DNA from: Desulfuromonadales bacterium
Lineage (GTDB): Bacteria > Desulfobacterota > Desulfuromonadia > Geobacterales > Pseudopelobacteraceae
Direction: 5' to 3'
Assembly: GCA_013349325.1 (NCBI GenBank)
Contig: DUZX01000001.1
Span: 163,027 to 227,026 of the forward strand
DNA: 64,000 nucleotides
The notes under the pieces were generated by a model. That model worked only from the letters and a program-made list of their open reading frames with translations, made no database searches and had not been told where the DNA came from. Shown in pieces: positions 13,848-59,895 of this stretch. Every line of letters begins with the position of its first letter. Within the stretch, counting starts at the first letter, position 1. A program made the translations under genes and the position numbers.

Positions 13848-14908
13848 TGTGGTTTTTGAAGGGTTTCGATAGCGTTCAGCAGCGTATCGCTGGTACTGCG
13901 GTAACGGCCATTCGGATAGATGGCGACATACTGGCGCAGTCGGCTGGCGGCCTGGTCAAACAGTTTCAGCTCATAGAGCGTCTGGCCGACACTGAACAGG
14001 GCAATTTCAGCCTGTGGCAGGTTGGGATACTCTTCCAGCACGAGCAGAAACTCTGCTAAAGCCGCACGCGGGTTGTCCAGAAAACGTCCCTGGATCGTGC
14101 CACGCTCCAGCCAGGCGTCAGCCCTGATTTCAGCTTTTTGAACCAGGTCGATGGCTATCTGGAGGATGCGCAGCGCTTCCTGGTAGCTGCCACGGTCGGC
14201 CAGATAGCGGGCATAGTTGACGTTCCAGCGGGCGATAATGGATGGCAGGGCATCACCGGCCAACCAGTCGGCCGGAGGCGTTTCTCCGGTTATTTCGTTG
14301 AAGGTTTTCAAGGCGTCTGCCAGCGGGCTCCCCGGCTCGACTTTGACCGGCTCCTGGGGATCATACCCGCGTGTGGTCTGAGTCATGGTTCCAGCCGTCA
14401 TTAATTTTTCTTCCTGCCCCGTGCCTTTGATGGAGACGATACCTTCGTTGCCGAAGAAGACGTTGGCCGGCCCTTCGCTCATCATCATGAAGGATGTCCC
14501 CTTGACGCCGGCGACAGCCGTACCGCTTTTGACCTTGATATCAGCCTGCTTGCCGGCCAGCTTGACGACATTGGCGCGCAGTTTACCCTGGGCCAGATTG
14601 ATCAGCCCTTCTCGCTTGTCCTTGCCCAGTCTCAGACGAGTCAGCTCCAGTTCACCGTTGTTTGCCAGGGTAAGTGTACTGCCGTCGCTCAGGGCCAGTT
14701 CAACCCAGCCGTTTTTCCCGGTGCGTACCCAGCTCCCCTCAGCCAGGGGAGAACCTGCTGAGAGGGCGGCATAGATCGACTTTTCTCCGCTGCGCTGCGT
14801 AACATCACCGCTCAATTTTCGAGCCGTGGCAACGCTTGCAGCCAGAGCACCCGTGGCAAAGAGGCAGATCAACATCAGGAATGTCAGTAGTACCATAAGT
14901 CGTTTCAT
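13844..14908 (-). CDS. Secreted FecR-domain protein with TPR-like C-terminus
   Basis: The protein has a signal peptide ('MKRLMVLLTFLMLICLFATGALA'), then a FecR domain from about residue 35 to 155. That domain includes 'WVRTGKNGWVELALSDGSTLTLANNGELEL' split over several strands, 'KVKSGTAVAGVKGTSFMM' and 'FFGNEGIVSIKG'. A helical, TPR-like region from about 200 to 350 follows ('YLADRGSYQEALRILQIAI', 'LYELKLFDQAASRLRQY'). I start it at 14908 because GGGAGG lies 6 bases upstream; the track start is five codons earlier. It is the first gene of a two-gene unit with the CHASE2 cyclase. FecR-CHASE2 pairing is recurrent in Geobacter and cyanobacteria, and suggests that FecR presents a periplasmic signal to CHASE2. 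That last step is inference. Confidence 0.88.
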   Translation of the reverse strand: MKRLMVLLTFLMLICLFATGALAASVATARKLSGDVTQRSGEKSIYAALSAGSPLAEGSWVRTGKNGWVELALSDGSTLTLANNGELELTRLRLGKDKREGLINLAQGKLRANVVKLAGKQADIKVKSGTAVAGVKGTSFMMMSEGPANVFFGNEGIVSIKGTGQEEKLMTAGTMTQTTRGYDPQEPVKVEPGSPLADALKTFNEITGETPPADWLAGDALPSIIARWNVNYARYLADRGSYQEALRILQIAIDLVQKAEIRADAWLERGTIQGRFLDNPRAALAEFLLVLEEYPNLPQAEIALFSVGQTLYELKLFDQAASRLRQYVAIYPNGRYRSTSDTLLNAIETLQKPQ

Positions 14909-14986
14909 GCAAGAGCCTCCCACAAAATGTATTTCCAGACAAAACGAAATCTCTCTCTGTTTTTCATGGCGGGATAAACATACCCA

Positions 14987-15364
14987 TTACAGCGCAAACA
15001 GAATCCCTTTTTCCGGATAATGCTTTACATTCCGAGTTGCTACTTTATAGCCCCTGACGAGAGCCGTGGCGGCAATCAGACAATCGAGTGAAGTAAGTGT
15101 TATTCCTTTTGCGCGGTAGCGACGGTAGAGCTCGCCCCCCTTATGGGCTATGTCGACTGTCACCTGCTCAATAACGCAGGCCTCCGTAAAATTGAGCGTC
15201 GTTTCTTTTTCTGTATCCCGCATCCCGGCAGTCAGTTCATAGACCGTAAGCACACTCAATGCTGCCTGGCCATCAACCCACAGGCCGACAAGTAACGACC
15301 GGGCGTACGGAATCCCGCGTAGATAATCAATGGCGACATCGGTGTCAATGAGTACGACCGACAT
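14987..15364 (-). CDS. vapC: PIN-domain toxin VapC
   Basis: A 125-residue PIN-domain ribonuclease. The four acidic positions are in 'LIDTDVAIDYLRG' (first Asp), 'VYELTAGM' (Glu), 'LTSLDCLIAATAL' (Asp) and 'ATRNVKHY', where Asn occupies the usual Asn/Asp site. Toxins of this type usually cleave tRNA or rRNA to slow growth and are held inactive by VapB. The gene overlaps the upstream antitoxin gene by 20 bases, the usual arrangement. All key residues appear intact, so the toxin should be active. Confidence 0.9.
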   Translation of the reverse strand: MSVVLIDTDVAIDYLRGIPYARSLLVGLWVDGQAALSVLTVYELTAGMRDTEKETTLNFTEACVIEQVTVDIAHKGGELYRRYRAKGITLTSLDCLIAATALVRGYKVATRNVKHYPEKGILFAL

Positions 15365-15647: not shown

Positions 15648-15717
15648 TCAGTAATGCAAAAAATATTTTGTGCATGGCAACCAACATGACCGCTTGATTT
15701 CCCTCCGTATTTACTCT

Positions 15718-18700
15718 ATGAAATCAGGTATGCGTTCACTATCAGTCAAACGTATCCTGAAAATCGCCGCAGGTGGTGGCTGCGTTATGCTGGCGCTGCT
15801 GCTGATCGGCGTTATCTCCGTTCCGGCGCTTGTCAGCTGCCGGGCAGCGCAGACGAAGATTCAGCAGACACTCTCCCGTTCCATGAGTCGCCCGGTAAGC
15901 TGGTCGGGCCTTACGGTGAGCTGGCTGCACGGCTTGACGCTCTCGGGACTGAAACTGGGTGACGGCCCGCCGCCGCTGCTGAATGCTGCTATCGATTCGA
16001 TCGATATCGTTCCCGGCTTCAGTCGCGGCACAGACGGACGGCTCGGCATCGACTTGGCCGTTAACGTCCGAAATATCATGACGGAACTCGCCCCCGGTCC
16101 ACAAAAACCACCCCCGCCAACCAAAGACCCGCTCACCCTGCTGGCAGAATCGATTCAACGCGTTCAAAAACTCGATCTTCCGTTGCCGGTGGATCTGCGT
16201 GTTTCGCTCGAGGTGGCACCGTTGCAGCTAAAGTACCGGGCGACGGCGCCGGCCAAAAGCATGCGGTTGCAGGATTTCTCGCTGCGCCTGTCCATGCCGT
16301 CACTGGCCACCAGACCGGTTACAGCGGTGGTGAACGGTCGCCTGTTTATTGCACAGAAGGAGCTGGGGAAGATCGCTTTCAGCGCCGAAATCCGTGACCT
16401 TGTCACACCGCAGAAGCGGATTCAACTGGCCTCGGCACTCTTCGCCGTTGACGCAGCAACTCCCGGTGCCGGCATGACAATTTCCGGCGGGCTCAGCCAG
16501 CCAGATGGATTCAGGTCGCGCCTGAAACTGGAGCTGCCGGTTCTACGGGAGATGGCGCAACCGTTTGTTCCGGCCGGTACGCCACAGCTCAGCGGGAATA
16601 TGGATCTACAGCTGCTGTCACAAATTGACACAAAGCGCGATCTGCTGGCCGCACTGACGCTGGCGGGTTCCGGTCTGGCGGCCCGTGGCGGTGCATTGAA
16701 AACAAAGCAGGTCGGGCCGCTCGATCTGAAACTGCAGCAGCAGCTAGCCAGTAACCACGTCACACAGCGGGTTGATTTTCCGAAGGGGACGTTTTCCGTA
16801 GCGGGTCTGCTCGATGCCGCCTGGAGCGCTGCGGTTGAGCGCCCGAGTGCTAAGAACCGCTCACTGGAGCTGCTGTTCGGACCGCTGCGTCTGGATCTGG
16901 CCCGGACAGTCGCTCTGGCGGCTCCGTTTCTGCCCCCCGACCTGCCGCTCAAGGATCTGGCCGGCGAAGCGCGGCTCCGCTCTCTGCAGCTGAAGCTGTC
17001 CGGCCCCGCCTACAACGGCTCTGTTACGGTGGCCGATCTGGGCATCACGCTGCCGCATCTGCGACTGGCGCTCAAAAAAGGTGAACTTTCAGCGCAGCAG
17101 GTTGCTGTGACCCTTGAAAAAGTCACCTGTCCGCTGGTTACCAAAAAGCCTACCGGCATCACCGGCAGCCTGCTCTGGAGCATCGGGCGGGCTGCCCTTG
17201 CAGGTTCCCAGCCGCTCGCGCTTGAGGGAGCACGCGGTACACTGGGCGTGAATGTCAACGAGCTTAACCTGAAGAGTGCTTCACCTCGCAAAATTACCGC
17301 TGCCGCCGATGTTACACACACGTGCGATGTTGATCGCGCCTCGCTCGGAACGCAGCTTGTTATCGAAAAGGCTCATCAGCAGCTGCACCTTCTGGCCCGC
17401 GCGGCAGAAACAGGCGGTATCGAAGCATCGCTTCCCGAACTCATCGTCAGCGCTGCGTCACTGCAGGCCTCGCAGGGCGGCAAAAAATTGAAGCCGCTGC
17501 CGCTGAACGCGTCATTGACAGCCGAGAACTTCCACCTCCCCTACGGCACAGCCGCTCTACCCTCCCTGCGGCGTGCAGGAGCAACTCTTACTGCGGGTGA
17601 CTTCATCCGGCTTTCCGCAGAGGCGACACTTTCCGGTTCTGCGCCGCAGCGCGCCACCAGCACAGGCAGCGCACAACTTGATCTGCAGCGCGCCCTGCTG
17701 TTTGCAGCCCCTTTTGTACCGGCCGGCTTGAAGGCTGACGGCAGAGTCAGCGCTCTCTGGAACGCTGCAGCCCCGCTGCCGCTCACGGTTCCTGGCGCCG
17801 AGAAGCATCCGCTCAAGCGCGCCAAAGCTGGACTGGCACTTCTTGAATCGCTTGAGATGGCGCTGAAGCTGGACAACGTCTCGGCCACGTTCCCTTCAAC
17901 AACAGGAGCCGTTACGCTGAGCGGTCTGCAGACCAAACCTGATCTCCGTATCGTAGCCGCGAAAAACGGTCAATCGGTCAGTTTTGACGGAGGCCTTCTG
18001 TTTTCCGGGGTTAACGGTCTTCCGAACGCGATGGGGAAACTTCCCGCTCAGCACGGCTCGCTGCTGGTTGCCGGCGAACTGTCCGGCTGGAATGAATTTC
18101 ACCTGACGGAATCATTCCGAATGCTGCCATTATCCGTTTCTCAGGAGCTGGATCTGAGCGTCAGCAGAATTGAAACTCTCTTCGACGAAAAAGCCCCCTT
18201 CAATACGGCGACACTGCTCAAACGCCTCGATGCAACACTGTTTGCCACCTGTGACGGCGCATTCAGCTCTGACATGAAACAGCTGCTTCCCGGCATTGAC
18301 GTGGCCGGCAGCGTCAGCGGCAGTGCCCGTATGGACGTCAGTGCCAGCCGTGAACTTGCGCTGCGGACTGCGCTCACATCTCACGAATTCGGGCTGCAGC
18401 TTGCCAACGGAACACAGATCGAAGGGGTCAGCTCCAACATATCCATCAACCGGGACTATGATCTGGCAGCCAGACCGGGCGAACGCTGGACGCCGCTTTC
18501 AGCGTCGTTGGTGCGACCCGCAGCGGCAGCCGACGGCAATTCGGGTGCGGCTGACATTATCACTCGTATTACGGAGGACCTGCGCGGCAATCTGCATGGC
18601 GCCCGTTCATTTTCGATCCGGCGCGTTACCGTCTCGATGCCCTCCGGAGTGCCGCTGGTGCTGACGTCGCTGGAGGGTGATCTGCTCTTCACCCGTGAAA

Positions 18701-19323
18701 AAACAGGTCTCAGCTTCCTACAGGCCGATCTGCTGGGGGGGACCATTCTCGCCCGCGCACTTTTCGACCAGCAGCCGGACGTGCCGCTGCTGGCCATCGG
18801 CAGCTCATTTTCCAACCTTGACGTCACACATCTGTTGCCGCACGATATCAAAAAGAGACAGACGCCCCGCGATGCAGAGATCACCGGTGAGATCACTCTT
18901 ACGGCCCCGCTGATGCCGGAACAGCGCGAGCTGTCTGAGCAGCTGCGCCTGAACCTGAATCTGCGCAGAATCGGGGCAGACACGCTTGAACGGGCGCTCT
19001 TTACACTGGATCCCTTTGAACGCAACGAACAGGTCGTGGCACAGCGCAACATGCTGCGTCTCGGGACGCTGAAGGGGTTGCGCGCAACGGCGGTCGATGG
19101 CTCCTTCGGCATGGAGGGTGAACTGCTGGTGAAAGGGGTCGCCATCAATCTCCCCCGGGTGGAGCGCTTGCGTATTTCCGAGCTGCCGCTACGCCAGGAA
19201 CTCAGCAAAAACCGGGCCGCCATCATGGCCGTACGCCGACTGATCGATCAGCTGCGAGCCGACACGCTGCTAGTCGGATCACACGGGAAACTGACATTAC
19301 AACGGAGGACGTATGAAAAATAA
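15718..19323 (+). CDS. Large AsmA-like / YdbH-like envelope protein
   Basis: A protein of about 1,200 residues with one N-terminal membrane anchor (about residues 12-38, 'AGGGCVMLALLLIGVISVPALV') and a very long periplasmic part rich in beta-strand repeats. Segments such as 'PVSWSGLTVSWLHGLTLSGLKLGD' are typical of AsmA-type bridge proteins. Such proteins (AsmA, TamB, YdbH) form long grooves that move phospholipid between the inner and outer membrane. The downstream gene encodes a DUF1318 lipoprotein, as in the E. coli ydbH-ynbE-ydbL operon, which favours a YdbH-like role. The start is uncertain: GTG 15670, ATG 15718 and ATG 15730 are all possible, and none has a strong ribosome-binding site. 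The 3' end overlaps the next gene by 11 bases. Confidence 0.75.
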   Translation: MKSGMRSLSVKRILKIAAGGGCVMLALLLIGVISVPALVSCRAAQTKIQQTLSRSMSRPVSWSGLTVSWLHGLTLSGLKLGDGPPPLLNAAIDSIDIVPGFSRGTDGRLGIDLAVNVRNIMTELAPGPQKPPPPTKDPLTLLAESIQRVQKLDLPLPVDLRVSLEVAPLQLKYRATAPAKSMRLQDFSLRLSMPSLATRPVTAVVNGRLFIAQKELGKIAFSAEIRDLVTPQKRIQLASALFAVDAATPGAGMTISGGLSQPDGFRSRLKLELPVLREMAQPFVPAGTPQLSGNMDLQLLSQIDTKRDLLAALTLAGSGLAARGGALKTKQVGPLDLKLQQQLASNHVTQRVDFPKGTFSVAGLLDAAWSAAVERPSAKNRSLELLFGPLRLDLARTVALAAPFLPPDLPLKDLAGEARLRSLQLKLSGPAYNGSVTVADLGITLPHLRLALKKGELSAQQVAVTLEKVTCPLVTKKPTGITGSLLWSIGRAALAGSQPLALEGARGTLGVNVNELNLKSASPRKITAAADVTHTCDVDRASLGTQLVIEKAHQQLHLLARAAETGGIEASLPELIVSAASLQASQGGKKLKPLPLNASLTAENFHLPYGTAALPSLRRAGATLTAGDFIRLSAEATLSGSAPQRATSTGSAQLDLQRALLFAAPFVPAGLKADGRVSALWNAAAPLPLTVPGAEKHPLKRAKAGLALLESLEMALKLDNVSATFPSTTGAVTLSGLQTKPDLRIVAAKNGQSVSFDGGLLFSGVNGLPNAMGKLPAQHGSLLVAGELSGWNEFHLTESFRMLPLSVSQELDLSVSRIETLFDEKAPFNTATLLKRLDATLFATCDGAFSSDMKQLLPGIDVAGSVSGSARMDVSASRELALRTALTSHEFGLQLANGTQIEGVSSNISINRDYDLAARPGERWTPLSASLVRPAAAADGNSGAADIITRITEDLRGNLHGARSFSIRRVTVSMPSGVPLVLTSLEGDLLFTREKTGLSFLQADLLGGTILARALFDQQPDVPLLAIGSSFSNLDVTHLLPHDIKKRQTPRDAEITGEITLTAPLMPEQRELSEQLRLNLNLRRIGADTLERALFTLDPFERNEQVVAQRNMLRLGTLKGLRATAVDGSFGMEGELLVKGVAINLPRVERLRISELPLRQELSKNRAAIMAVRRLIDQLRADTLLVGSHGKLTLQRRTYEK

Positions 19324-19906
19324 ATCTTTATTACTGCCAATCTACCTTCTGGCCGTGCTCTCAGGCTGCACGCTGGCCAAGGTGGATGTCAATGTTGTCA
19401 GCGAGCGGACGTCGCTGGAGAATCAGGTCCTCGGGAGCTACAACAGCCTGAGTGAGGATATGCTGCTGGTGGCGTCGGTGCGTGGCGTTTCTCCGACCGG
19501 GACTGTCGAAGCGCCCCCCCGGCATACACCGGAACAGGTTGATGCCACCCAGGCGCTGGAAACGATCGCCTTTCATGCCGATGACATCGAAGCTTTCAAA
19601 CGTTTCGGTTGGATCGGTGAGAATCGGGAGGGGCTCTTGACTCCCTTTGCCCGCGACGTGCCACCAGGCGCCCCCCCGGAACTGAAACAGTTAGCGGCAC
19701 AGTATGGCGACGCCGAATTTCAGCAGGTGCTGAAAGAGGTCAATCAGGCGCGCGAGGTGGTGATGCTGCGCGTGGTGCAAACCAATGAAAACTTCTCGCT
19801 CAAGGATTTGCCGGCTATCCGCACGGTATTTGCCAAAATAAACCGCCAGAACAGTCTGCCGGGCACCAGAGTGCAGGCTGCTGACGGAACATGGATGACG
19901 TTATGA
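19313..19906 (+). CDS. DUF1318 (YdbL-like) lipoprotein
   Basis: A 197-residue predicted lipoprotein with the lipobox 'LAVLSGC' at residue 19. The C-terminal 55 residues resemble E. coli YdbL: the pattern 'VNQAREVV' then 'ENFSLKDLPAIRTVFAK' and the ending 'GTRVQAADGTWMTL', which parallels the YdbL ending with its G-x-x-V-Q-x-x-x-G-x-W. The middle is polar and unassigned. The start overlaps the end of the AsmA-like gene and has GGAGG four bases upstream, so the two are coupled. In E. coli YdbL is a periplasmic partner of the YdbH-YnbE bridge. A single acylated protein here may combine the lipoprotein and YdbL roles; this is inference. Confidence 0.75.
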   Translation: MKNKSLLLPIYLLAVLSGCTLAKVDVNVVSERTSLENQVLGSYNSLSEDMLLVASVRGVSPTGTVEAPPRHTPEQVDATQALETIAFHADDIEAFKRFGWIGENREGLLTPFARDVPPGAPPELKQLAAQYGDAEFQQVLKEVNQAREVVMLRVVQTNENFSLKDLPAIRTVFAKINRQNSLPGTRVQAADGTWMTL

Positions 19907-19930
19907 ACGTATCACCACGACAGAAAGAGT

Positions 19931-20022
19931 CCCCTCTCCCCTGGAGGGGGAGGGTTAGGGTGGGGAGGGAAAGTGCCATGAAATGTACCTGTTGCAGCAG
20001 CACACATTCCCTACCCCACTCC
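19931..20022. repeat. REP-like G/C-rich palindromic element at the start of the CHAT gene
   Basis: The sequence CCCCTCTCCCCTGGAGGGGG followed by AGGGTTAGGGTGGGGAGGG forms a strong hairpin with a G-rich tail. TCCCTACCCCACTCC further on (20008-20022) is roughly complementary to the tail. This is the well-known 'CCCTCTCCC...GGGAGAGGGTTAGGGTGAGGG' style of bacterial interspersed element. It lies across the junction between the DUF1318 gene and the giant CHAT gene and supplies the GGGAGG in front of the ATG at 19978. Confidence 0.6.
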
Positions 20023-23000
20023 TTTCAAGGGCAGCGGCATAGAATAGCTTGCGTAAGCGCTGTTTTTCGCCTGACGCTCCTGCTCCTTCTGATCTGCGCG
20101 ACCGCAGCATCCGCCCTGCCGCTGGGGGATGATCTGCTGGCGCCGGCGGCACCTCGTCCGGCGCCGCGCTCACGTCCCGAGCTGTCACCGCAGCCGGCTA
20201 TCTTCAGCTCCCGTCAGGTTCTGTACGCTGCGCGGGCCGCCAACGGCTCCGTCATGGTTACCGTTGAGCGGGGTGACAAGGGGGATGAGCTCTGGCTGTA
20301 CTCTTTTGGCGCAGCCCCCGAACTGCCGCGTCTACTGCATACGAGTCCGGTTCGTCTGGCAGCTCCCGCGCTCAGCGCTGACGGCTCTCAGGTAGCGTTC
20401 GTAGATGCCCGGGATGACACCAAGGGCGATATCTGGCTGCTGGCGCTGCAGAAGGCCGACTCCGCCGCGCAGCGTCTGACCGGGCGGGAATCAGCCGACG
20501 ACGCCCCGGTCTTCACACATGACGGCACGGCGCTGGTCTATCATCGCCAGCGACCAGGATCTGAACTGCGTGAGCTGGTGCGCCTGAATCTGGCCGACAG
20601 CCGGACTGAAAGCCTGCCGACCGGTATTGACGCCGCCTTTGCGGCGCCCTCTCCGGATGGCGGCAGCTGGCTGTTCGTGTCACGGGCAGCCGATCCGAAT
20701 GGAGATCTCTGGCTCTGGAATCAGACGAGCGGAGCGTTGACGCAACTGACCAGCGGTACCGCCCGGGATCTCTATCCGGCCTGGGAAAGCTCCGATACGA
20801 TTCTGTTCACGCGCCAGTCGGCAAGCGGCGGCAGCGCAGCCGGTGGACAGGAGTCAGGCCAGGTCTATCGTCTGCAGCGCAGCAGAGTTTCCGATGATGG
20901 CTTTCCGTTTGCCGCTCCGCTGACCTCTGCCGCGTTGATGGCGGTGGCACCGCTCCCGGCCGGTGATCGCTTTTATTTTGTCGCCGGTCAGGCCGGCGGC
21001 GGCCAGGTCATGTCACTGCCGACTGCGGGCGAAATCCCTGATCGTCCGGATGTGGCCGAACAGTGGGGCCTGGCGCAGATCATTCTGGAACGGCAGCCGC
21101 CTGATCCGGCTCATGCCCGTTTGGCGGCCGCCCGCGTGCTGGCACGCGAGCAGACACCGACACGGGAGGGAGCCCTGGCCGGTCTGGCGCTGGCCGCTCT
21201 AATGGAACAGGCCGGCGAGATTGCCCCGGCTGAAGATCAGTATGCTGCCGTTGCGCACCGCTACCAACGCTACCCGCGTGAAGCGGCACTGGCCGCAATA
21301 GCCCGGATCAGGGTTCAGGCCATGCAGCGCTGCGCAGACAACGTGCTGCAGCAGCGCCGCCAGGAGATCATTCGCGACGCACAACAGGCCATGAACCAGG
21401 CGGCGACAGCTGCCGGCAGCGATGCCGTTGCGCGGGCACTGATTGATGCGGCCCGTCTACAGGCGGATTTTGGTGGCGGAGCGGCCGACAAGCTGGCGGC
21501 GGTTGCCCTTCTGGAGCAGGCGCTGAAAACGCCGGATGTCACCCGCCCATTCAAAGCGGAAGCGGCGCTGCGACGCGCCCTGCTGCTGGCCCAGCTGGAA
21601 AAAGGTGACGGGGCGCTGACCGCCCTGGTTGACGTCGCAACGACCTACGACGACCAGGAAGAGTGGGCGGAAGCGGCCATCAGCGCCGCTCTGGATCAGG
21701 TTTCTCCGCGTGAAAAAGCCGATGCAGCCGCTCTGGCTGTAGTGGCAGAGCGCTACCGCACGTCGCTACCTCGCCTGTCCATGGGAGCCTGGAACCGCCA
21801 GGGTGACGTGGCCTATCGCGCCAACGAGTGGGCCAAAGCCAAGGATGCCTACCGCACCGTACTCGAAAAATTTCCTCCCTTGGCGACGCCGACAGCTGCC
21901 GCACGCTTTGCCCTGGCGGAACTGCTCTTCCGTGAGGAACGCTACGCCGAAGCCAAAGGGCTCTACGAAACCGAGATGAGTCGGCAGCCGGAGGATACGC
22001 CGCTCTATCAGCTGGCTCGCGCTGCCTACATCCGCAAGACCGTTGCGGCCGGAGAAAGCCTCTTTCGCCTCGGAGAGGTTGGCGCCGCCCGGACTCTGTT
22101 TCTCGATCTGATCCGCTATGACGGCCGCAGCGTTGAAGCGCATCGAGGTTACATCAAGTCGGTCGCCGCCATGGGGCAGGCCGCTGAACTGCTTGAACGC
22201 TACCGCAGCATGCTACAGACATATCCCGATGATGCGGTGCTGCTGTATGCAACCGGACTGACGCTGACCTATCTGCCCGGAAAAGAGCGCCTTACCGAAG
22301 CGGACCGTCTCGTTTCCCGTGCGGCCGAGCGGATGCCCTCTTCGGAGTACCCACCGCAAACCAGAGGCTATCTGGCCGAAGTTGCCGAAACGGTGCATGG
22401 TGAGCGGGGTGGTCTGGAGCGGGCACTGGCGTTCTATCGCCGCGCCTGGCTGCTGAACCGGCCGCAGGACCAGCCGGAAAACCGGGCTAACCTCGATCTG
22501 AATATCGGCAACATCGCCTATCTGCTCGGCAGCAAAGCGACGGCCTGGAAGTTTTACAGCCAGCGCCTCGCTTCGGGAATCCCCTTTGACAACGCCGATA
22601 CCGAGCTGATCTTTCAGCAACGCTACGCGGCGGTCGCTTTTCAGGTGCGCGAGAAAGAGGCCCCTATCAACGGCTATCTACGGGCCCTGCAGCTGACCGA
22701 GGCACGCCTGAACCCAGCCCGCCCGCTCGACCTGTTCGGCCGCCTGACCCGGCGCGTCGTGGAGCGGCTCTTTTCGACACCGGGGCGCTCACCATCCGCT
22801 GAAGCTGCCCTGGCGCTCCAGCAGACTATAACTGCCGAGCTTGAGCAGCTTGGCGCTGTTCCTGTTGAAGCACCGCCATCGGCAGCCTGGAACCATTTTG
22901 AGACGGCGCTTCGCTCGCTGCTGAAACGTGAAGGCGCGCTGCTGCAGTCGGCGGCATCCTGGAACAGGGCGGCAGCTGACAGCAGCGCAGCTGAGTTATA

Positions 23001-26000
23001 CGGCCTGCTGGCCGCTGTCGAAAAGGAGCTGACGGCCGTGCCGCGCCTGGTTGAAACGGCAGCTGAAGTCCATGACCGGCTCGGCCTGGCCTACCTTGAA
23101 GCGGATCGTTTCGCTGCGGCACGCGAGCAGTTTGACGCCGCATTTCGGCTCAACAAAGGTCTCGGTTTTACCGGCAATCTGGCCGCCAACCGTCGATCGG
23201 CCAGCATCGCCAGCTACAACCAGGCGCAGCGGGCCTCCGGCGAGGAGCGGCAGCGCCTGCTGCGCCTGAGCCGTGACGGTTTCAGCGAGCTGTTGGCGCT
23301 GATTGCCAGCTACCCCCCGGCACCGAAAACGGCCGCCACGCGCGCTGGCGGACTGCTGGAGATCTCTGCCAGTGTGACACTTGACAAGGGGGGCTCCACT
23401 GCGGCCGCCTTCGGTTTCACGGCTGAGCAGGAACGGCGTCTGGCTGAAGTCTATCTGGCCCGTGTTCAGGCCGAGCTGGGTGATCCGCGCGCGGCCGCCC
23501 TGCTGCTCAAGAACCAGCTCACGCGTTACCCTCTCGAACCTGAAAAGGTCGCCGTGGGGGATCTGTACGGCGTAGCACTGCTGACGCACCGCGCCGCCCA
23601 TGTCGATTATGCCCTGGGTGACCGTGACAGCGCCGCCTCCGGTTTCAAACGTTCGACACTACTGGCACTGCAGGCCGGTAATCCGATCAGTGCCATGCTC
23701 AACCTGATCAACTGGGGAGAGCTGATTACAGCTGAGTCCGCTGGTAAGAGCGCCGAATTCCTCGCGCTTGAAGCCCGTGTTTCCGGGCGTGCAGAAGCAT
23801 CCCGGACCACCTTGCCGCCACTTGTCTATGGCCGCTATCACAATGATGCCGGTGCAATCCTGATCCGGCTGGCAGCCGGACAGCCGAATGACGGCAGTCG
23901 TCAGGCCCTGCTGTACAAAGCACTGGGGCAGTTCGATAAAACCGTGAGCGCTGCCGCAGACAGCAGCAACGACGCTGTCCGGCATCAGCAGCAGCGCCAG
24001 CGCGTGGCCGCCCGGCTTAACCGGAGTGTCGTCTTTGCCGCGCTTGGTCTCAATGACGCCGCCGAAGCGGACCGCATGGCGGCGCTGAATGAAGCTCACG
24101 CTGCCGCAGCCCATGCACTCGAATGGCGTGCGCTGGCAGCTCTGGGGCGCTATCAGCAGTCGCTGGGTCTCTTGGAACATCTGCCGCTGACCGGGTTTGA
24201 TCTGCAATCTGGAGAGCTGCTGCAACGCTTTGCCCCGTATGTTGAAATGATAGCGCTCAAGAATCCTGAGCAGGCCTTTGCCCTGCTGGAAAAACTGAGT
24301 GAGATCGAGCGTGTACAACTACTTGGTCGCGGCGCTCTCGGCCTCGATGATCCGGCCACTCGGCAGCGGTTTCAGACGGTTGCCCCCCGCTTGAAGAGTA
24401 TGGATCAGCTGCGGGAGCAGCTCTCCAAAGCTCCTGTCGCTGAAAAAGAGTATCTGCAGCTGCGTCTGCAGCAGGAGCAGGCGGTCGTTGATGATCTCCT
24501 GGGAGCGAAACGGGAGCATATTCCGGCCTTCTACCGGCTGTCCGGAGATACTGCGCTCCGGCTGGCTGTCGCCTCGGTTGACCTGACAGTACAGTCGCAA
24601 TCCGGTCCGGCAAAGACTCAGGACCAGAGCGCTCAGTTTAACGCAGCCCAGCTCCGTTTCAGCACCATTCAGCTGGCTTTCCAGAAAGAGTGTGCCGCCG
24701 GAAAAGGGGGGCCGCTCTGCCGCCTGATTTCAGCACAGCCGGTTGAGCTGATCGATGTGCAGGAAGCGCTGCCGGGCAGAACACTGCTCCGTTTCGCTCC
24801 GCTTGACAGCAGACGCTGGTTGCTGTTTACGATTGCCGGCACTACCGGGATAACAGCCGAGGTGGTCGATACACAGACACTGGATGTCAGGTTGTCGGCA
24901 ACTCCGCCCGTTCTGGCCGCATACGAACAGCCGTCCCGCTTTTTATCCGCTCCGGTAGACAGCTGGGGCTTAAGCGCCAGCCATCTGGTGCGCTCCGTAC
25001 TTCAGCGCAAGCCGTTCCGTCGTCAGGTCATCGATCAGAGCGGCTGGTGGCAGATCGCCGGGTCGTTCACTGCGCTGACGCCAGAGCGATTGGCAGACGC
25101 CCATACCCTGGTGCTCCCCGGACAGGCCGGACTGCTGGCAGAGTCACCGTCGCGCACCGGCGAGGGCGGCTATTCACTGCCGTTGTGGGAGGATACAAAC
25201 GGTCAGCGTCACCCGTTTGCCGAACTGGGCGCAGCAGAAAACCTCTCCCTGATCGTGGCGCCCCGCTCTACTCCGGATCAGGCTTACAGCCTGGGGCATC
25301 TGGCACAACTGCAGGGGGTGCCGTCACTGCTGCTGCCGGGCTTGATCACGGCTACCGATACAACCCTGAACGTACAGAAATTTGCCGCTGCCTATGCGCT
25401 CCAGTCGCTTGCAGAGGCAAAAAAGCAGCTTACGCCGGGCTGGCTGCTGCTTGGTGACGGTGGTCCGGATGCCGCTGAAGCGGCCAAACTCGGCAAAAGC
25501 CGCTTCAGCGCCTACGCAAAAGCCGGGGTGGAGGCGCACAACGCCGGTTCGTATCCGCAGGCGCTCTCCCGCTTTGAAAGCGCCCTGGCAATCGTCACCG
25601 AGAATCCGGCTCTGGCACAGCAGCGCACTCCGCTGCACCGCTATGCCCGCGAGAGCGCCTACGCAGCCGGGTTTACCGATCGAGCCGTATTCCATGCCGA
25701 TGCCCTGGTCGCCGGCCTGGCCACAGAAAAACCGTATTCCCCCGAACATGCCGATGCCCTGCTGCGCCTGGGGTTATTGCAGGGCGCTGCCGAACGTTTT
25801 GATGCCGCTGCGGTTTCACTGAAAGAAGCGGTCGGAATTTTTGCCGATCTCGGCATGCCCAGGGAGCAAGCGGCGGCGCTGGCCGACTTTGGCGTCGTCA
25901 TGGAGAATGCCGTTAATTTCAGCTCGGCACGAACGCTCTTTGAAGAGTCTGCCGGCCTGCGCAGAACGCTGAAGGATGAGATCTCGCTGGCCGAACAGTA

Positions 26001-28335
26001 CCGCAATCTCGGCCGCATCTTTGACCTGCGGCTGAACCGCTACGCCGTCGCCGAACAGTATTACGCCCAGGCCGGCGAGATCTACCGGCGCGCCGACAAT
26101 CGGGCACTGGAAGCGGAAACGCAGCTGGAACGGGGGCGCTGCCAGCGGCTGCTGGGCAATTTTACGGTGGCTGACAGACTGTATGCGGACGCCTTGACGA
26201 ACGTTGGAACCACGGATCTGCGCACAAAAATGCGCATCGTGCTGGAACAGGCCAACAACGCCTGGTTCCAGGGGCGCTATCAGGAGGCCTTTGATCTGCG
26301 TGAGCAGGTCGAAAAACGGGCCCTGGCAGAGCAGTGGCCGCTGGAGCAGGTCATGGCCAAAAACAGCGGCGGCCTGATCTGGTGGACGCTGGGGGATAAC
26401 AAGCGTGCGCTTCTTGAATTGCGCGGTGCGCTTGAGCGGGCCGAAAAGCTGGCGGTACGGCCTGATGAAGTTGCCACCACGCTCAATAACATCGGTCTGG
26501 TGCAGCGCGAGTCCGGAGAGTATGCCGTCGCAGTGGAAACGCTGAACAGGGCGCTGGCCATAGACCGTACGCTCGGTTCACGCTGGGCGATGGCCTATGA
26601 TCTGCGCAATCTCGGTCAAACCCGGCTGAAAATGGGTGATGCGGTGACGGCTCTGCAGCAGTTCGCTGAAGCAGCGCTCATGGCCTCCGAGATCGGTGAC
26701 AAGGTCAATCTGGCCAAAATCCATCTGGCGCGGGGCGATGCCGAAACGGAACTACAGCGCGGCACCGCCGCAGAAACAAGTTACCGCGCAGCGCTCGAAA
26801 TCGCCGATGCACTGCTGCTGCGCGAGGTGCGCTGGCGGGCTCTGTTCGGACTGGCCCGTCTGCAGAAAAAGAGCGGTGATCTCGTCAAAGCCGTCAACTC
26901 CTATCAACAGGCGCTTGAAACCGTCGAAGGTCTGCGTGCCGCCATCAAACTGGATCAGCTCAAGGATGGATTCCTGGCCGACAAGATGGATGTCTATTCC
27001 GGCCTGGTTGATCTGCTGGTTGATCTGCAGCGCAGCGATGAAGCCTTCGCCGTGGCCGAACGCTCCCGCTCGCGGAACCTGATCGACATTCTCGGTCGGC
27101 AGCGGCTGTCGCTGGCCGGAACCGTTGAGCAGGGGTTGTACGACCGCCAGAACCGGCTCAAAGATCAACTGTTGGAGCAGGAAAACCTGTCGGTTCAGGC
27201 CACTAATCCAAAAGAGCGCGCCCGCTATGCCAAGGCGCTGGAAAAGCTGCGCGGCGACTATCAGGATCTGCTGATCGATATCGAGCGCACACGGCCGGAG
27301 CTACTGGCGCTGGTCAAGGTCAACCCGACCACGCTTGACGCTATCCGCACGCAGCTTGAGCCGGGTGTGGTGCTGTTCTCCTACTATCAGCTGCAGGATC
27401 GTCTGCTCTGCTGGAAGATCGAGCGCGACAGGGCAACGTTGATCATCACGAAGGTTTCAGCCAGAGAGCTGGCCGCAAAGATCGCATCCTACCGGCGCAT
27501 GCTGCAGAATCTGGAACCGCTCGAAAAACAGTCGCGCGAGCTGTATGATCTGCTGGTGGCACAGCAGCTGTCTGGTACTGCTGCTCCCCGCGCACTTGGA
27601 ATCGTACCGCACGGCAGCCTGCACTACCTCTCCTTTGCAACCTTGAGCGACGGACGCGACTATCTGGTTGACCGGCAAAAGCTCTTCTATCTTCCGGCGG
27701 CGTCGGTCTTGAAATATACGCTGGCACGCCGTGCACCGCAGAAGAATCTGCACATTCTGGCCATCGGCAATCCCGATCTCGGCAATGCGACGCTCGATCT
27801 CCCCTTTGCCGAGCGCGAAGTCGGCACGCTGCGCTGGAACTACCCTGATATCACCACTCTGACCCGTGAACGGGCTACCGAAAGCTGGATTCGTGAGCAT
27901 ATCAGCGAATTTGGTGGTATACATATAGCGTCACACGGTGAATTCGATCCGATCAACCCGCTCTTTTCGGCAATCAGACTTGCAAAGGACGGTAAGGCCG
28001 ATGGCAAGCTACAGGTGGAAGAGATTTTCGGACTCGATATCCGTGCCGACCTGGTCGTCTTGAGCGCCTGTCAGACCGGCCTGGGAGACGTAAAGAGCGG
28101 CGATGATGTGGTCGGTATGAACCGGGCTTTCATCTTCGCCGGCACCCACGCGCTGATGTCCAGTCTCTGGCGGGTCAGCGACGTTTCAACGGCGATTCTG
28201 ATGAAACAGTTCTACCGTAGCTACATGACAAACGATAAGTCCGAAAGCCTGGCTCGCGCCATGCGACATGTAAAAAACCGCTATCCGCATCCCGGTTATT
28301 GGGGCGCATTTATCCTGAGCGGAGATTATTTCTAA
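19978..28335 (+). CDS. Giant secreted PD40-TPR-CHAT protein (caspase-like protease)
   Basis: About 2,785 residues. A delayed signal peptide ('LTLLLLLICATAASA', cleavage before Leu-Pro) is followed by a TolB/PD40-type beta-propeller (about residues 80-330; 'PALSADGSQVAFVDARDD'). A very long TPR array covers most of the rest to about 2,400. The C-terminal CHAT domain has the catalytic pair His2653 ('IHIASHGEFD') and Cys2698 ('VVLSACQTGLG'), numbered from this start. CHAT domains are caspase/separase-like cysteine proteases, so the protein is probably an active periplasmic or exported protease or scaffold. Start choice: ATG 19903 would overlap the upstream stop (ATGA), but the coding sequence then runs through a REP-like element; ATG 19978 has GGGAGG upstream. 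The track begins at 19891. SH3 and M48 genes follow in the same operon. Confidence 0.85.
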   Translation: MKCTCCSSTHSLPHSFQGQRHRIACVSAVFRLTLLLLLICATAASALPLGDDLLAPAAPRPAPRSRPELSPQPAIFSSRQVLYAARAANGSVMVTVERGDKGDELWLYSFGAAPELPRLLHTSPVRLAAPALSADGSQVAFVDARDDTKGDIWLLALQKADSAAQRLTGRESADDAPVFTHDGTALVYHRQRPGSELRELVRLNLADSRTESLPTGIDAAFAAPSPDGGSWLFVSRAADPNGDLWLWNQTSGALTQLTSGTARDLYPAWESSDTILFTRQSASGGSAAGGQESGQVYRLQRSRVSDDGFPFAAPLTSAALMAVAPLPAGDRFYFVAGQAGGGQVMSLPTAGEIPDRPDVAEQWGLAQIILERQPPDPAHARLAAARVLAREQTPTREGALAGLALAALMEQAGEIAPAEDQYAAVAHRYQRYPREAALAAIARIRVQAMQRCADNVLQQRRQEIIRDAQQAMNQAATAAGSDAVARALIDAARLQADFGGGAADKLAAVALLEQALKTPDVTRPFKAEAALRRALLLAQLEKGDGALTALVDVATTYDDQEEWAEAAISAALDQVSPREKADAAALAVVAERYRTSLPRLSMGAWNRQGDVAYRANEWAKAKDAYRTVLEKFPPLATPTAAARFALAELLFREERYAEAKGLYETEMSRQPEDTPLYQLARAAYIRKTVAAGESLFRLGEVGAARTLFLDLIRYDGRSVEAHRGYIKSVAAMGQAAELLERYRSMLQTYPDDAVLLYATGLTLTYLPGKERLTEADRLVSRAAERMPSSEYPPQTRGYLAEVAETVHGERGGLERALAFYRRAWLLNRPQDQPENRANLDLNIGNIAYLLGSKATAWKFYSQRLASGIPFDNADTELIFQQRYAAVAFQVREKEAPINGYLRALQLTEARLNPARPLDLFGRLTRRVVERLFSTPGRSPSAEAALALQQTITAELEQLGAVPVEAPPSAAWNHFETALRSLLKREGALLQSAASWNRAAADSSAAELYGLLAAVEKELTAVPRLVETAAEVHDRLGLAYLEADRFAAAREQFDAAFRLNKGLGFTGNLAANRRSASIASYNQAQRASGEERQRLLRLSRDGFSELLALIASYPPAPKTAATRAGGLLEISASVTLDKGGSTAAAFGFTAEQERRLAEVYLARVQAELGDPRAAALLLKNQLTRYPLEPEKVAVGDLYGVALLTHRAAHVDYALGDRDSAASGFKRSTLLALQAGNPISAMLNLINWGELITAESAGKSAEFLALEARVSGRAEASRTTLPPLVYGRYHNDAGAILIRLAAGQPNDGSRQALLYKALGQFDKTVSAAADSSNDAVRHQQQRQRVAARLNRSVVFAALGLNDAAEADRMAALNEAHAAAAHALEWRALAALGRYQQSLGLLEHLPLTGFDLQSGELLQRFAPYVEMIALKNPEQAFALLEKLSEIERVQLLGRGALGLDDPATRQRFQTVAPRLKSMDQLREQLSKAPVAEKEYLQLRLQQEQAVVDDLLGAKREHIPAFYRLSGDTALRLAVASVDLTVQSQSGPAKTQDQSAQFNAAQLRFSTIQLAFQKECAAGKGGPLCRLISAQPVELIDVQEALPGRTLLRFAPLDSRRWLLFTIAGTTGITAEVVDTQTLDVRLSATPPVLAAYEQPSRFLSAPVDSWGLSASHLVRSVLQRKPFRRQVIDQSGWWQIAGSFTALTPERLADAHTLVLPGQAGLLAESPSRTGEGGYSLPLWEDTNGQRHPFAELGAAENLSLIVAPRSTPDQAYSLGHLAQLQGVPSLLLPGLITATDTTLNVQKFAAAYALQSLAEAKKQLTPGWLLLGDGGPDAAEAAKLGKSRFSAYAKAGVEAHNAGSYPQALSRFESALAIVTENPALAQQRTPLHRYARESAYAAGFTDRAVFHADALVAGLATEKPYSPEHADALLRLGLLQGAAERFDAAAVSLKEAVGIFADLGMPREQAAALADFGVVMENAVNFSSARTLFEESAGLRRTLKDEISLAEQYRNLGRIFDLRLNRYAVAEQYYAQAGEIYRRADNRALEAETQLERGRCQRLLGNFTVADRLYADALTNVGTTDLRTKMRIVLEQANNAWFQGRYQEAFDLREQVEKRALAEQWPLEQVMAKNSGGLIWWTLGDNKRALLELRGALERAEKLAVRPDEVATTLNNIGLVQRESGEYAVAVETLNRALAIDRTLGSRWAMAYDLRNLGQTRLKMGDAVTALQQFAEAALMASEIGDKVNLAKIHLARGDAETELQRGTAAETSYRAALEIADALLLREVRWRALFGLARLQKKSGDLVKAVNSYQQALETVEGLRAAIKLDQLKDGFLADKMDVYSGLVDLLVDLQRSDEAFAVAERSRSRNLIDILGRQRLSLAGTVEQGLYDRQNRLKDQLLEQENLSVQATNPKERARYAKALEKLRGDYQDLLIDIERTRPELLALVKVNPTTLDAIRTQLEPGVVLFSYYQLQDRLLCWKIERDRATLIITKVSARELAAKIASYRRMLQNLEPLEKQSRELYDLLVAQQLSGTAAPRALGIVPHGSLHYLSFATLSDGRDYLVDRQKLFYLPAASVLKYTLARRAPQKNLHILAIGNPDLGNATLDLPFAEREVGTLRWNYPDITTLTRERATESWIREHISEFGGIHIASHGEFDPINPLFSAIRLAKDGKADGKLQVEEIFGLDIRADLVVLSACQTGLGDVKSGDDVVGMNRAFIFAGTHALMSSLWRVSDVSTAILMKQFYRSYMTNDKSESLARAMRHVKNRYPHPGYWGAFILSGDYF

Positions 28336-28356
28336 CACCATATCAAGGAGTTCATC

Positions 28357-28887
28357 ATGAGAAAACATCGCACCTATCTTGTCATTTTCGTGCTGTTATT
28401 GTCGGTCGTTACGGCAATTGCGGCAGAAACACGCTGGGTATCCAGCGAGGGGACGACGCTCAAAGCTGAATCCTCGGCTGCGTCAGAAACTATTGCCGAT
28501 GTAGCGGTCGGCAGCGAGGTTACGGTAATTGAATCCGGTGGCCGCTGGCTGAAAGTCAGAACGGCAAGCGGCAAGGAGGGGTGGCTCTTTGCCGGCCGTG
28601 TGTCCGAAACGCAACCGGCCGCAGAAGTTTCCGGCGGTGACGGGGGCATCTTCGGTAACAGCATGAAAAGCAGCCAGATATCCACGGCCAAGGCTGACAG
28701 CGGTCGCAGTATTCGTGGACTTTCTCCGGGGGCGGCCCAGTACGCCAAAAATCGCGGCACACCGGAACTGTACAAAAAGTCGCTGGATGTCGTTCTGGCG
28801 CGAAAAGTCACACCCAAAGAGTTGAAAACTTTTTTGAAAGAGGGAAAGATCGGGGAATATGCTCAGGGAGAAGGGGGTAAAAAATGA
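28357..28887 (+). CDS. Secreted bacterial SH3-domain protein
   Basis: A 176-residue protein with a signal peptide (to about residue 23, 'VVTAIAAE') and one SH3b domain at about 27-80 ('TTLKAESSAASETIADVAVGS', then 'GRWLKVRTASGKEGWLFAGRV'). The rest is polar, with a short helical C-terminus. Such domains bind peptidoglycan peptides or protein partners. AAGGAG lies 7 bases upstream of the ATG. The gene sits 21 bases after the CHAT gene, and its last bases overlap the M48 gene (ATGA). It may be an adaptor for one of the two flanking proteases; there is no direct evidence for this beyond the operon. Confidence 0.82.
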   Translation: MRKHRTYLVIFVLLLSVVTAIAAETRWVSSEGTTLKAESSAASETIADVAVGSEVTVIESGGRWLKVRTASGKEGWLFAGRVSETQPAAEVSGGDGGIFGNSMKSSQISTAKADSGRSIRGLSPGAAQYAKNRGTPELYKKSLDVVLARKVTPKELKTFLKEGKIGEYAQGEGGKK

Positions 28888-29747
28888 AAACCGTACTCAT
28901 ACTCGTATGCCTGATACTTCCGCTCTCAGCCTCAACAGCTCTGGCCGGTTTTTTTGAAAGCCTGGCGAATCCGGAATCGAAGGAGTGGAAGATTATTACC
29001 GGGGCAACTCAGGTTCTATCGAGCACGCAGGAGATCGATTACCCGACTGAACGCAATATTGGTGAGAGTCTGGCGCTGGAAGGGTTGCAGCGTTTCGGGA
29101 ATCCGGTGGCGAATGAACAACTGCAGAAGTATGTCAATCTGGTCGGCTCTGCGGTTGCCGCCAACAGCACGCGGGCGACGATTCCGTATCAGTTTGCCGT
29201 ACTGGACAGCCAGGTGCAGAACGCCTTTGCCGTTCCGGGCGGGGTCATTTTTGTCAGTCGCGCCCTGGTCGACATCCTGGAGAGCGAGGCTGAACTGGCC
29301 GCTGTCCTGGCCCACGAGATCGGCCACGTCTCGGCCAAACATGCCTTGAAGAGTACCCGGCGGGCCCAGTTTTTCCAGGGAGTCGGAACGATCACCGCTG
29401 CCAATCTCAAGGGGGATACCGGCAAACAGTTCGCCTCGGCCATCAACGATATGCAGGGGGTGCTGTTTGACAAGGGACTTGACAAGGAGATGGAGTTTGA
29501 AGCCGACCTGGCCGCCATGGAAGCGGCCTATCGTACCGGCTATGATCCCTCTGCCATGATCAGGGTTCTGGAAAAGCTACAGAAACTGGAAGCGACCAGC
29601 AGGGAGAAAAAGGGCTCATGGTTCTCGACGCATCCACCGCTGGACGAGCGCATCGCCCGCCTGCAGACCCAGCTGCGCCACTATCCCGATTTTGCGGCAC
29701 AGGCCAGCGTGAAGGAGCGTTTTGCAAAATACGGGCGGGTGAAGTAA
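28884..29747 (+). CDS. M48-family periplasmic zinc metalloprotease
   Basis: A 287-residue protein with a signal peptide ('LILVCLILPLSASTALA') and an M48 peptidase domain. The zinc motif HExxH is 'LAHEIGHVSAKHAL' near residue 142. The third ligand Glu is in 'EMEFEADLAAMEAAYRTGYDP', and 'STHPPLDERIARLQ' marks the end of the family domain. It resembles the LoiP/BepA group of outer-membrane quality-control proteases but lacks a TPR tail. It has no lipobox. It is the last gene of the AsmA-DUF1318-CHAT-SH3-M48 operon; only 12 bases separate it from the convergent nitroreductase gene. Confidence 0.9.
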   Translation: MKTVLILVCLILPLSASTALAGFFESLANPESKEWKIITGATQVLSSTQEIDYPTERNIGESLALEGLQRFGNPVANEQLQKYVNLVGSAVAANSTRATIPYQFAVLDSQVQNAFAVPGGVIFVSRALVDILESEAELAAVLAHEIGHVSAKHALKSTRRAQFFQGVGTITAANLKGDTGKQFASAINDMQGVLFDKGLDKEMEFEADLAAMEAAYRTGYDPSAMIRVLEKLQKLEATSREKKGSWFSTHPPLDERIARLQTQLRHYPDFAAQASVKERFAKYGRVK

Positions 29748-58605: not shown

Positions 58606-59775
58606 TTACCGCCTGTACGTCAATTCAATGGTATAGCCTGAAAATTTCGTGATTTTAAACGTACCTTTTTGCTCAATACTGTTGGCCAGGTAGATGGAAT
58701 TTTCAGGATAGCTGACCGTAAACGAGCCTATGCCGGCATCTTCAACGGCGGTTACCCAGGTGATATTCTGCAGAGCTTCCTTGATCGAGAAATTTTCACC
58801 CACATCTTTTACGCCACTGACTTTTACGTCAATTTTCTTGGTCACACCCTGAATATACTTTGCAACCTTGTCCAGAATAAGTGGCGACATTTTATCGGCA
58901 AGCTCTTTCAGCCCCGCCGCAACCGCGTCATCGACACTGCCGGCCAGCCCTTTACCGCTCTCCGCGCCGGCGGTCAGAATTATCATTTTTCCCGAAGCGT
59001 CTCTCGTAATAAGGCGGTAGGTCAGCCTGACCGTGGCTGAATTGAAGGGCATCGCGACGCCATAGCCGATGTTCTCCCCCTTTCTGGTTGAAACGGTGTA
59101 ATCAACCTTGCCGATCAGAATGACGTTACTGAGGAACTTGTACATCAAGCTGCGCAGCGACAAAAAGTTTCCGTTTTTCATCGCTTTTTCAATTTCAGCA
59201 GCATCCAGCACATTGGTCGGGGCGACATCGACAACCGTATAGCCCTGCTCTGTCAGTTTTCCGATAATTGTTTCCGAAAGAATATTTGATTCTTCATGTT
59301 CATCCACACTCGTCTGCGAATGGTATTCATGCGTGCCGGAGCGCGAGTCCGTTGCTCTGACAACCTTTGGCCTCTGAGCCGGGATAAACACGGCAATCGA
59401 ACTGTTGAGCGCCAGACCGGAAAGCGCATCCCTGGCCTTGGCGGGCGACACACATACGTTTACCGTTACTGTGACCGCATCCGGAGTGCTGTTAACCGTC
59501 AGCAGGTTGTATTTCGTGACAACGCCACTGACATTCTTGCTGATGGCATCATCAATCATCTGCATATTCTGTACGATGCTCTGCGCTTTGATCTGAACAC
59601 CCGCAACCTGCTCCACGGCCGTCCACTTCGCCCGCGCAATCGCCTCGACTTTGGCAGACGGCAGATCGTTGTTGATAAGTGCCGCCTCGCCGCTGGCGTC
59701 AACACAACTGCTTTCAGCGCCTGCGCATACTGACGGCAGCACGATCAGAATCAAAAGTACCAGGATGTTCTTCAT
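58606..59775 (-). CDS. Secreted FlgT-N/LPP20-like protein of unknown function
   Basis: A 389-residue exported protein. The track ORF (951 residues) begins deep inside ileS on the other strand; the real start is ATG 59775, where GGAGG lies 8 bases upstream and a signal peptide follows ('NILVLLILIVLPSVCAGA'). Residues 22-110 resemble the N-terminal domain of the flagellar protein FlgT and LPP20-like proteins: 'ASGEAALINNDLPSAKVEAI', 'ARAKWTAVEQVAGVQIKAQS', 'TVTVNVCVSPAKARDAL'. The rest ('VAVFIPAQRP'-like strand, then 'SLRSLMYKFLSNVILIGKVD') resembles periplasmic domains that follow this module. No flagellar gene is nearby, so a general envelope role is as likely as a flagellar one. Confidence 0.72.
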   Translation of the reverse strand: MKNILVLLILIVLPSVCAGAESSCVDASGEAALINNDLPSAKVEAIARAKWTAVEQVAGVQIKAQSIVQNMQMIDDAISKNVSGVVTKYNLLTVNSTPDAVTVTVNVCVSPAKARDALSGLALNSSIAVFIPAQRPKVVRATDSRSGTHEYHSQTSVDEHEESNILSETIIGKLTEQGYTVVDVAPTNVLDAAEIEKAMKNGNFLSLRSLMYKFLSNVILIGKVDYTVSTRKGENIGYGVAMPFNSATVRLTYRLITRDASGKMIILTAGAESGKGLAGSVDDAVAAGLKELADKMSPLILDKVAKYIQGVTKKIDVKVSGVKDVGENFSIKEALQNITWVTAVEDAGIGSFTVSYPENSIYLANSIEQKGTFKITKFSGYTIELTYRR

Positions 59776-59829
59776 ATGACATTCCTCCGAAACCCTGCTC
59801 CGGAATGGCGCAAGTAGAGATGCCATTCC

Positions 59830-59858
59830 TTGACAATTCGGCTTTAAATCTGTAGTTT
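59830..59858 (+). promoter_or_regulatory. Candidate sigma-70 promoter for ileS
   Basis: A perfect -35 box TTGACA (59830-59835) is followed after 17 bases by TAGTTT (59853-59858), a weak -10 with three of six matches. It lies about 40 bases upstream of the ileS start in the divergent interval with the FlgT-like gene. No T-box leader is visible. Confidence 0.4.
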
Positions 59859-59895
59859 GTTCCAGTTTTAACGAATAAAGAATGGAGATGCACTC

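Follow-up and report, generated by a model that had tools for sequence, protein, structure and literature searches.

Why would one set of bacterial envelope genes bring together a lipid-bridge-like protein, a caspase-like protease of more than 2,800 residues and a second protease of the M48 family? The question is raised by positions 15718-29747 of the window, the 64,000-nucleotide stretch of Desulfuromonadales DNA that was analyzed. An earlier note, made from the letters alone, had described five plus-strand genes here, with overlaps or gaps of about 20 bases and an export signal on every product. When the sequence was re-read, five intact, tightly packed plus-strand ORFs were found with the same coordinates, in the following order from 5′ to 3′:

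15718-19323, plus strand: AsmA-like protein, 1,201 aa from the ATG at 15718
19313-19906, plus strand: DUF1318 lipoprotein, with a lipobox (...LSGC)
19891-28335, plus strand: giant exported CHAT protein (TolB-like propeller, TPR, CHAT), 2,814 aa
28357-28887, plus strand: exported SH3 protein, 176 aa, with a conserved C-terminal tail
28884-29747, plus strand: exported M48 metallopeptidase, 287 aa (PF01435, 121.6 bits against a cut-off of 20.3)
29313-29327, plus strand: HEIGH codons of the M48 protein (HExxH, residues 144-148)

The AsmA-like and DUF1318 genes overlap by 11 bases, the DUF1318 and CHAT genes by 16 and the SH3 and M48 genes by 4 (ATGA), and the CHAT and SH3 genes are separated by a gap of 21 bases. 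Pfam matches on the window proteins are clear for CHAT, TPR, PD40, SH3_3 and M48, and the HExxH motif of the M48 protein is complete, as had been claimed. A scan of the operon for promoters and terminators gave nothing informative. The flanking genes show no conservation among the neighborhoods compared; the upstream FecR, CHASE2-cyclase and VapC-like genes and the downstream nitroreductase gene were considered as parts of the system and rejected, since they are unconserved in relatives. Upstream and divergent from the operon, window positions 11736-14923 (minus strand) encode the CHASE2-adenylate/guanylate cyclase (703 aa) and the FecR-TPR protein, and positions 14987-15364 (minus strand), immediately upstream, encode the VapC-like PIN protein. 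In one relative (G200, L181:941-3184), a gene whose start resembles CHASE2 on visual inspection is likewise present upstream of SH3-M48, perhaps by chance. Elsewhere in the window, a 951-aa ORF (58606-61461, minus strand) has no Pfam match at E 1e-5 and is overlapped on the opposite strand by a 924-aa ORF (59896-62670, plus strand).

Export was judged by a simple hydropathy test, not by SignalP. By this test, all five products have the hydrophobic N-terminal stretch expected from the earlier description, and the feature recurs in their homologues (AsmA 15/15, DUF1318 40/42, CHAT 44/44, SH3 43/43 and M48 42/42), which suggests that all are exported. Lipoboxes such as LSAC, LVSC and FVSC are also seen on the CHAT proteins from several distant genomes, and those from the Geobacterales have ordinary signal peptides. 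The occurrence of two different export signals on homologues of the same protein argues that it really leaves the cytoplasm.

Domain organization of the giant CHAT protein

From its N-terminus, the giant protein consists of a signal peptide, a TolB-like propeller, a TPR region, a degenerate CHAT domain, a second TPR region and an active CHAT domain:

20173-21090, plus strand: TolB-like PD40 beta-propeller, residues ~95-400
24259-25494, plus strand: degenerate CHAT domain, residues ~1457-1868, recognized by profile-profile comparison, fold and loss of the dyad
27529-28326, plus strand: active CHAT domain, residues 2547-2812 (PF12770, 189.4 bits against a cut-off of 24)
27934-27936, plus strand: codon of His2682, active CHAT dyad
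28069-28071, plus strand: codon of Cys2727, active CHAT dyad

The propeller was assigned by comparison of profile A7 with PDB TolB (E 4.9e-29). Near the 5′ end of the gene, an in-frame, repeat-like stretch (window 19930-20000; CCCCTCTCCCCTGGAGGGGGAGGG...) lengthens the part that precedes the signal peptide, and other additional stretches occupy this site in the relatives L112 and L113. In alignment A8, row 2 was trimmed by hand and an initial Met was added. The His/Cys pair of the C-terminal domain is complete, in agreement with the earlier note, and corresponds to His2682 and Cys2727 of the full ORF; the Cys2698 of the note is Cys2727 counted from Met30. Both residues are unchanged in 44/44 aligned homologues, and this second CHAT domain is complete and predicted to be catalytically active.

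Each of the two long TPR regions ends in a CHAT domain. The protein contains two TPR-CHAT modules, the first of which is without both the catalytic His and the catalytic Cys. This is a new observation: the earlier note had missed the degenerate first CHAT domain, and likewise that the DUF1318 protein is related to YdbL and that the operon falls into two blocks. In a profile-profile comparison, the degenerate domain matches the active one with E 6e-14 and a probability of 98.2 (tiny database). The homologue from G200 (L107), which has two Pfam CHAT stretches, is intermediate between the two domains (E 6e-24, tiny database). Modeled with AlphaFold (pLDDT 79), this region of the window protein has a single significant fold match, to DdvA (E 6.6e-4); a secreted C11 protease and then separase come next but fall below significance. 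When the middle region of the window protein itself was searched directly with an HMM of the active domain, the result was no better than with shuffled sequences (E 0.026 and 0.024, respectively; tiny database), and the assignment of a pseudo-CHAT domain thus rests on the profile-profile comparison, the intermediate homologue and the fold. Similarly, because a direct phmmer search of the PDB with the window CHAT domain gave nothing, solved relatives had to be sought by profile; the best one for both the active and the degenerate domain is DdvA (profile E 0.0027). The genome from which the window comes encodes one more CHAT protein (L002 1255-3378, minus strand; G000:C3), which is unrelated and lacks an obvious export signal.

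The best-matching solved protein, DdvA, is a transmembrane anti-sigma factor that contains a CHAT domain, and its match to both domains favors a role in signaling, in which the giant protein would be a sensor like the periplasmic CHAT domain of DdvA and inform a cytoplasmic regulator by binding or cleavage. However, the giant protein has no recognized cytoplasmic anti-sigma domain or internal transmembrane anchor, and there is no sigma factor in the conserved neighborhood. A signaling role of this kind is considered very unlikely.

Conservation and separation of the five genes

Four components (AsmA, DUF1318, CHAT and SH3) were sought in 141 genomes of the order. AsmA was found in 47, DUF1318 in 44, CHAT in 46 and SH3 in 46. 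The earlier note had held that its reading would fail if the genes did not co-occur in other genomes, which is not what was found: all four are present in 43 of the 48 genomes that have any of them. The other five appear to reflect gaps in the assemblies. G017, which lacks the full set, is 78% complete, CHAT or AsmA is cut at contig ends in G020, G024 and G030, and a CHAT fragment lies at a contig end, beside SH3-M48, in G102. The Fisher p for co-occurrence (<1e-33) is too small given the shared ancestry of these genomes, which are not phylogenetically independent. The CHAT homologues of the order are 61-78% identical over their full length or are large fragments at contig ends, DUF1318 directly precedes CHAT in 44/44 cases, and reading of the loci placed M48 after SH3 in nearly all that extend that far. 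The conserved five-gene order, which the note had proposed to look for, recurs in 20 or more Geobacterales loci; the operon is present in named relatives such as Citrifermentans bremense R1 and Geobacter sp. OR-1. Within the order, the components are all-or-none, and their neighborhood is not due to chance.

Outside the order but within the same phylum, full-length CHAT homologues are 39-43% identical, and remoter ones are ~2,690 aa long. All five genes are found in order in G489, G469 and G165, with CHAT identities of 37-43%; in G165, at the lower end of this range (~37%), the AsmA-like protein is barely recognizable (E 3e-5) yet in place. Shorter runs are seen in G366 (AsmA-DUF1318-CHAT-SH3, up to the contig end), G419 (DUF1318-CHAT-SH3-M48) and G467 (CHAT-SH3-M48). 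In a sample of 297 genomes of this one phylum, with relationships taken from kinship labels, strong lipoprotein matches (E ≤ 1e-50) occur in G000, G100, G165, G179, G200, G366, G407 and G419, and 8/8 of these genomes also have the giant CHAT protein. Seven other genomes give much weaker matches (E 1e-8 to 1e-11), and these cover the DUF1318 domain only. G379 and G234 have CHAT and no DUF1318 match, and their CHAT contigs end at or within the gene. The operon is conserved in several deep branches of the phylum.

The gene set also comes apart in a regular manner. SH3-M48 is found at a second locus, still paired, in G407, G482, G483, G486, G379 and G028, and in G200, CHAT, DUF1318, SH3-M48 and an AsmA-like match are all present on four contigs. 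In some loci the gap at the CHAT-SH3 junction reaches ~970 bases. In G179, SH3 and M48 are fused into a 410-aa protein encoded directly after CHAT (L104 16038-17270, reverse-complement coordinates), and an unfused pair is kept elsewhere in the same genome (L159). The operon is thus composed of two separable modules, AsmA-DUF1318-CHAT and SH3-M48, and the fact that the separated pieces are retained is the most persuasive argument for a joint function, although joint occurrence does not establish physical contact. In another relative (G015, L113 15923-16457), two small ORFs between CHAT and SH3 resemble, by eye, an antitoxin-toxin pair of the Phd/RelE type.

Every component comes from a widespread family, as would be expected of ordinary housekeeping genes that are neighbors by chance, but the all-or-none occurrence, the phylum-wide order, the retention after splitting and the fusion make this explanation negligible. 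As judged by these comparisons, the interpretation as one conserved five-gene envelope system is well supported.

The distribution also bears on the possibility of a defense system triggered by envelope damage or phage, in which the CHAT protein, as an immune effector, would sense injury to the envelope and respond by killing or arresting the cell, with the other genes as sensor and regulators. The operon is missing from about two thirds of the genomes of the order, the TPR-CHAT architecture fits such a role, and CHAT proteases are known from CRISPR-linked immunity and have been discussed together with gasdermins (PMC9729208). Against this, PADLOC-DB gives only weak TPR and BovA matches on the giant protein and none on its partners, the flanks are unconserved and hold no recurring defense or mobile genes, and a single copy is retained in most members of a genus. 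In addition, both proteases and the bridge have export signals, and no pore-forming partner is visible in the conserved set. A defense function is rather unlikely, and the link to immunity and cell death drawn in the earlier note is not borne out.

The bridge-like pair and a proposed mechanism

Two further features were located in the first two genes:

~15769-15834, plus strand: N-terminal transmembrane helix of the AsmA-like protein
~19577-19897, plus strand: C-terminal DUF1318/YdbL domain of the lipoprotein (Pfam, profile)

The AsmA-like ORF extends from 15670 to 19323 (1,217 aa), with a possible GTG start at 15670 and its first ATG at 15718. Its body is predicted to be long, formed of beta-strands and periplasmic. 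The window protein itself has no Pfam match, and the name AsmA-like rests on relatives at the same place, because only these match DUF748 (PF05359, 52.8 bits against a cut-off of 50) and AsmA (PF05170, 38.5 bits against a cut-off of 29.8). The AF2 model has a mean pLDDT of 57 and is confident only for residues ~500-930, all of which are in long strands; a fold search with this model gave no match below 0.001, and a profile comparison with E. coli YdbH, in a tiny database, gave none. The DUF1318 assignment was made in the window protein itself, where the Pfam score (26.7 bits) is just under the cut-off of 27 and the profile matches E. coli YdbL with E 4.8e-8 (tiny database); on this evidence, the domain is homologous to YdbL. 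A YdbL-like motif (GxIGE) seen by eye in the SH3 tail was rejected as non-significant (E 0.026, probability 0.9, tiny database). The Thr that follows the lipobox Cys of the DUF1318 protein is in keeping with sorting to the outer membrane under the rule known from E. coli.

In E. coli, ydbL adjoins ydbH-ynbE, and the three products are an AsmA-like protein, an outer-membrane lipoprotein and a DUF1318 protein. A role in phospholipid transport has been described for YdbH and YnbE (PMC8593681, PMC11784454). The operon likewise begins with an AsmA-like gene followed by a lipoprotein with a DUF1318 (YdbL) domain, and by analogy its first two genes look like a compact version of ydbH-ynbE-ydbL. It differs in that the lipoprotein and DUF1318 parts form a single protein that carries the lipid anchor, and in that the system has three further genes, two of which encode proteases. 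Profile comparison found no YnbE-like segment in the N-terminal part of the lipoprotein, and there is no separate YnbE gene in the operon; since homology to YdbH and YnbE was looked for and not found, the operon is not classed as YdbH-YnbE-YdbL.

The reading that we prefer, and offer tentatively as a somewhat less than even prospect, is a five-component envelope machine that joins a YdbH-like intermembrane bridge to a dedicated periplasmic protease of separase type and to an SH3-M48 module for quality control. The AsmA-like protein would be anchored in the inner membrane and extend a hydrophobic groove, possibly for lipid transport, across the periplasm. At the outer membrane, the lipoprotein would cap or regulate this bridge and may combine the roles of YnbE (lipoprotein) and YdbL (DUF1318). 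In the periplasm, the giant protein would sit on this bridge and serve both as a scaffold and as a regulated protease, its active CHAT domain kept shut by the inactive first CHAT domain and the TPR arrays. This proposed restraint is modeled on CHAT and separase proteases that are inactive in complexes; a CHAT protease that resembles separase has been found to be held inactive in this manner (PMC9729208). When the bridge or its cargo changes, the active domain may open and would then cut a bridge component or a client. As a separable module, SH3-M48 may bind the cell wall or a protein through SH3, and M48 would clear faulty or cleaved proteins. Of the envelope-damage sensing and proteolysis system proposed earlier, the conserved envelope setting stands, with intact caspase-like and M48 proteases beside a lipid-bridge-like protein; damage sensing does not, as no signal was identified.

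A more specific form of this machine is a separase-type checkpoint, in which the giant periplasmic protease with its dead twin reads the bridge and cuts to open, close or dismantle it, and SH3-M48 clears the products. The checkpoint is doubtful but possible. To our knowledge, no earlier system has a caspase-like protease that controls an intermembrane bridge, and this one, if the checkpoint reading is true, would be the first. The control of AsmA-family bridges and the other factors of their complexes have been stated to be an open question for E. coli (PMC12977461).

Assembly of outer-membrane or surface proteins would draw on the same parts, with the AsmA-like protein as a TamB-like path, the CHAT protease maturing a client that is secreted or lies at the surface, and M48 exerting BepA-like quality control. 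BepA is the characterized protein nearest to the M48 protease, the propeller is TolB-like, and TamB of the AsmA superfamily works with TamA in outer-membrane protein insertion (PMC12800296, PMC12977461). However, the conserved set has no beta-barrel or client gene, and the DUF1318 partner indicates the YdbH branch, not TamB. An assembly role is considered unlikely.

Comparison with known envelope and CHAT systems

Searches of the open-access literature gave no description of the five-gene combination. Among known CHAT proteins, DdvA of Myxococcus xanthus (PDB 8rot, 8rw5), a transmembrane anti-sigma factor, is likewise an envelope protein. It differs in being 991 aa long, membrane-spanning and dedicated to sigma regulation, whereas the giant protein has an N-terminal export signal only and no sigma-binding cytoplasmic domain was found in it. 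We know of no propeller, bridge or M48 partner of DdvA. TPR arrays that lead into a CHAT domain with a His-Cys dyad are also seen in Csx29 of the type III-E Craspase (PMC9729208), which in contrast is cytoplasmic, ~750 aa or less, has a single CHAT domain and is partnered with an RNA-guided nuclease. The Csx29 model scores 40.5 bits on the giant protein against a cut-off of 300, and no Cas7-11/gRAMP or CRISPR genes occur in the neighborhoods read.

The M48 protein, whose nearest solved relative is 3c37, followed by BepA, shares its protease domain and export signal with BepA and LoiP, the M48 proteases of outer-membrane quality control. Unlike BepA, it consists of the M48 domain only (287 aa), without a C-terminal TPR domain, and it scores 88.6 bits with the BepA equivalog against a cut-off of 570; unlike both, it has an obligate SH3 partner, once fused to it. 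With TolB, the giant protein shares the PD40 beta-propeller only, and the conserved set is without Tol-Pal genes.

What sets the locus apart is the linkage: in distant branches of the phylum, one AsmA-family protein has remained linked to two dedicated proteases, even where the operon has broken up, and this conserved linkage gives named partners and point mutants for testing. The locus also appears to put a separase-like protease into the periplasm, a setting distinct from the immune and CRISPR systems in which CHAT proteases are studied, with a duplicated CHAT domain whose first copy has decayed to a non-catalytic form. The system is best described as an AsmA-family bridge with dedicated proteases, parts of which belong to the CHAT and M48 families.
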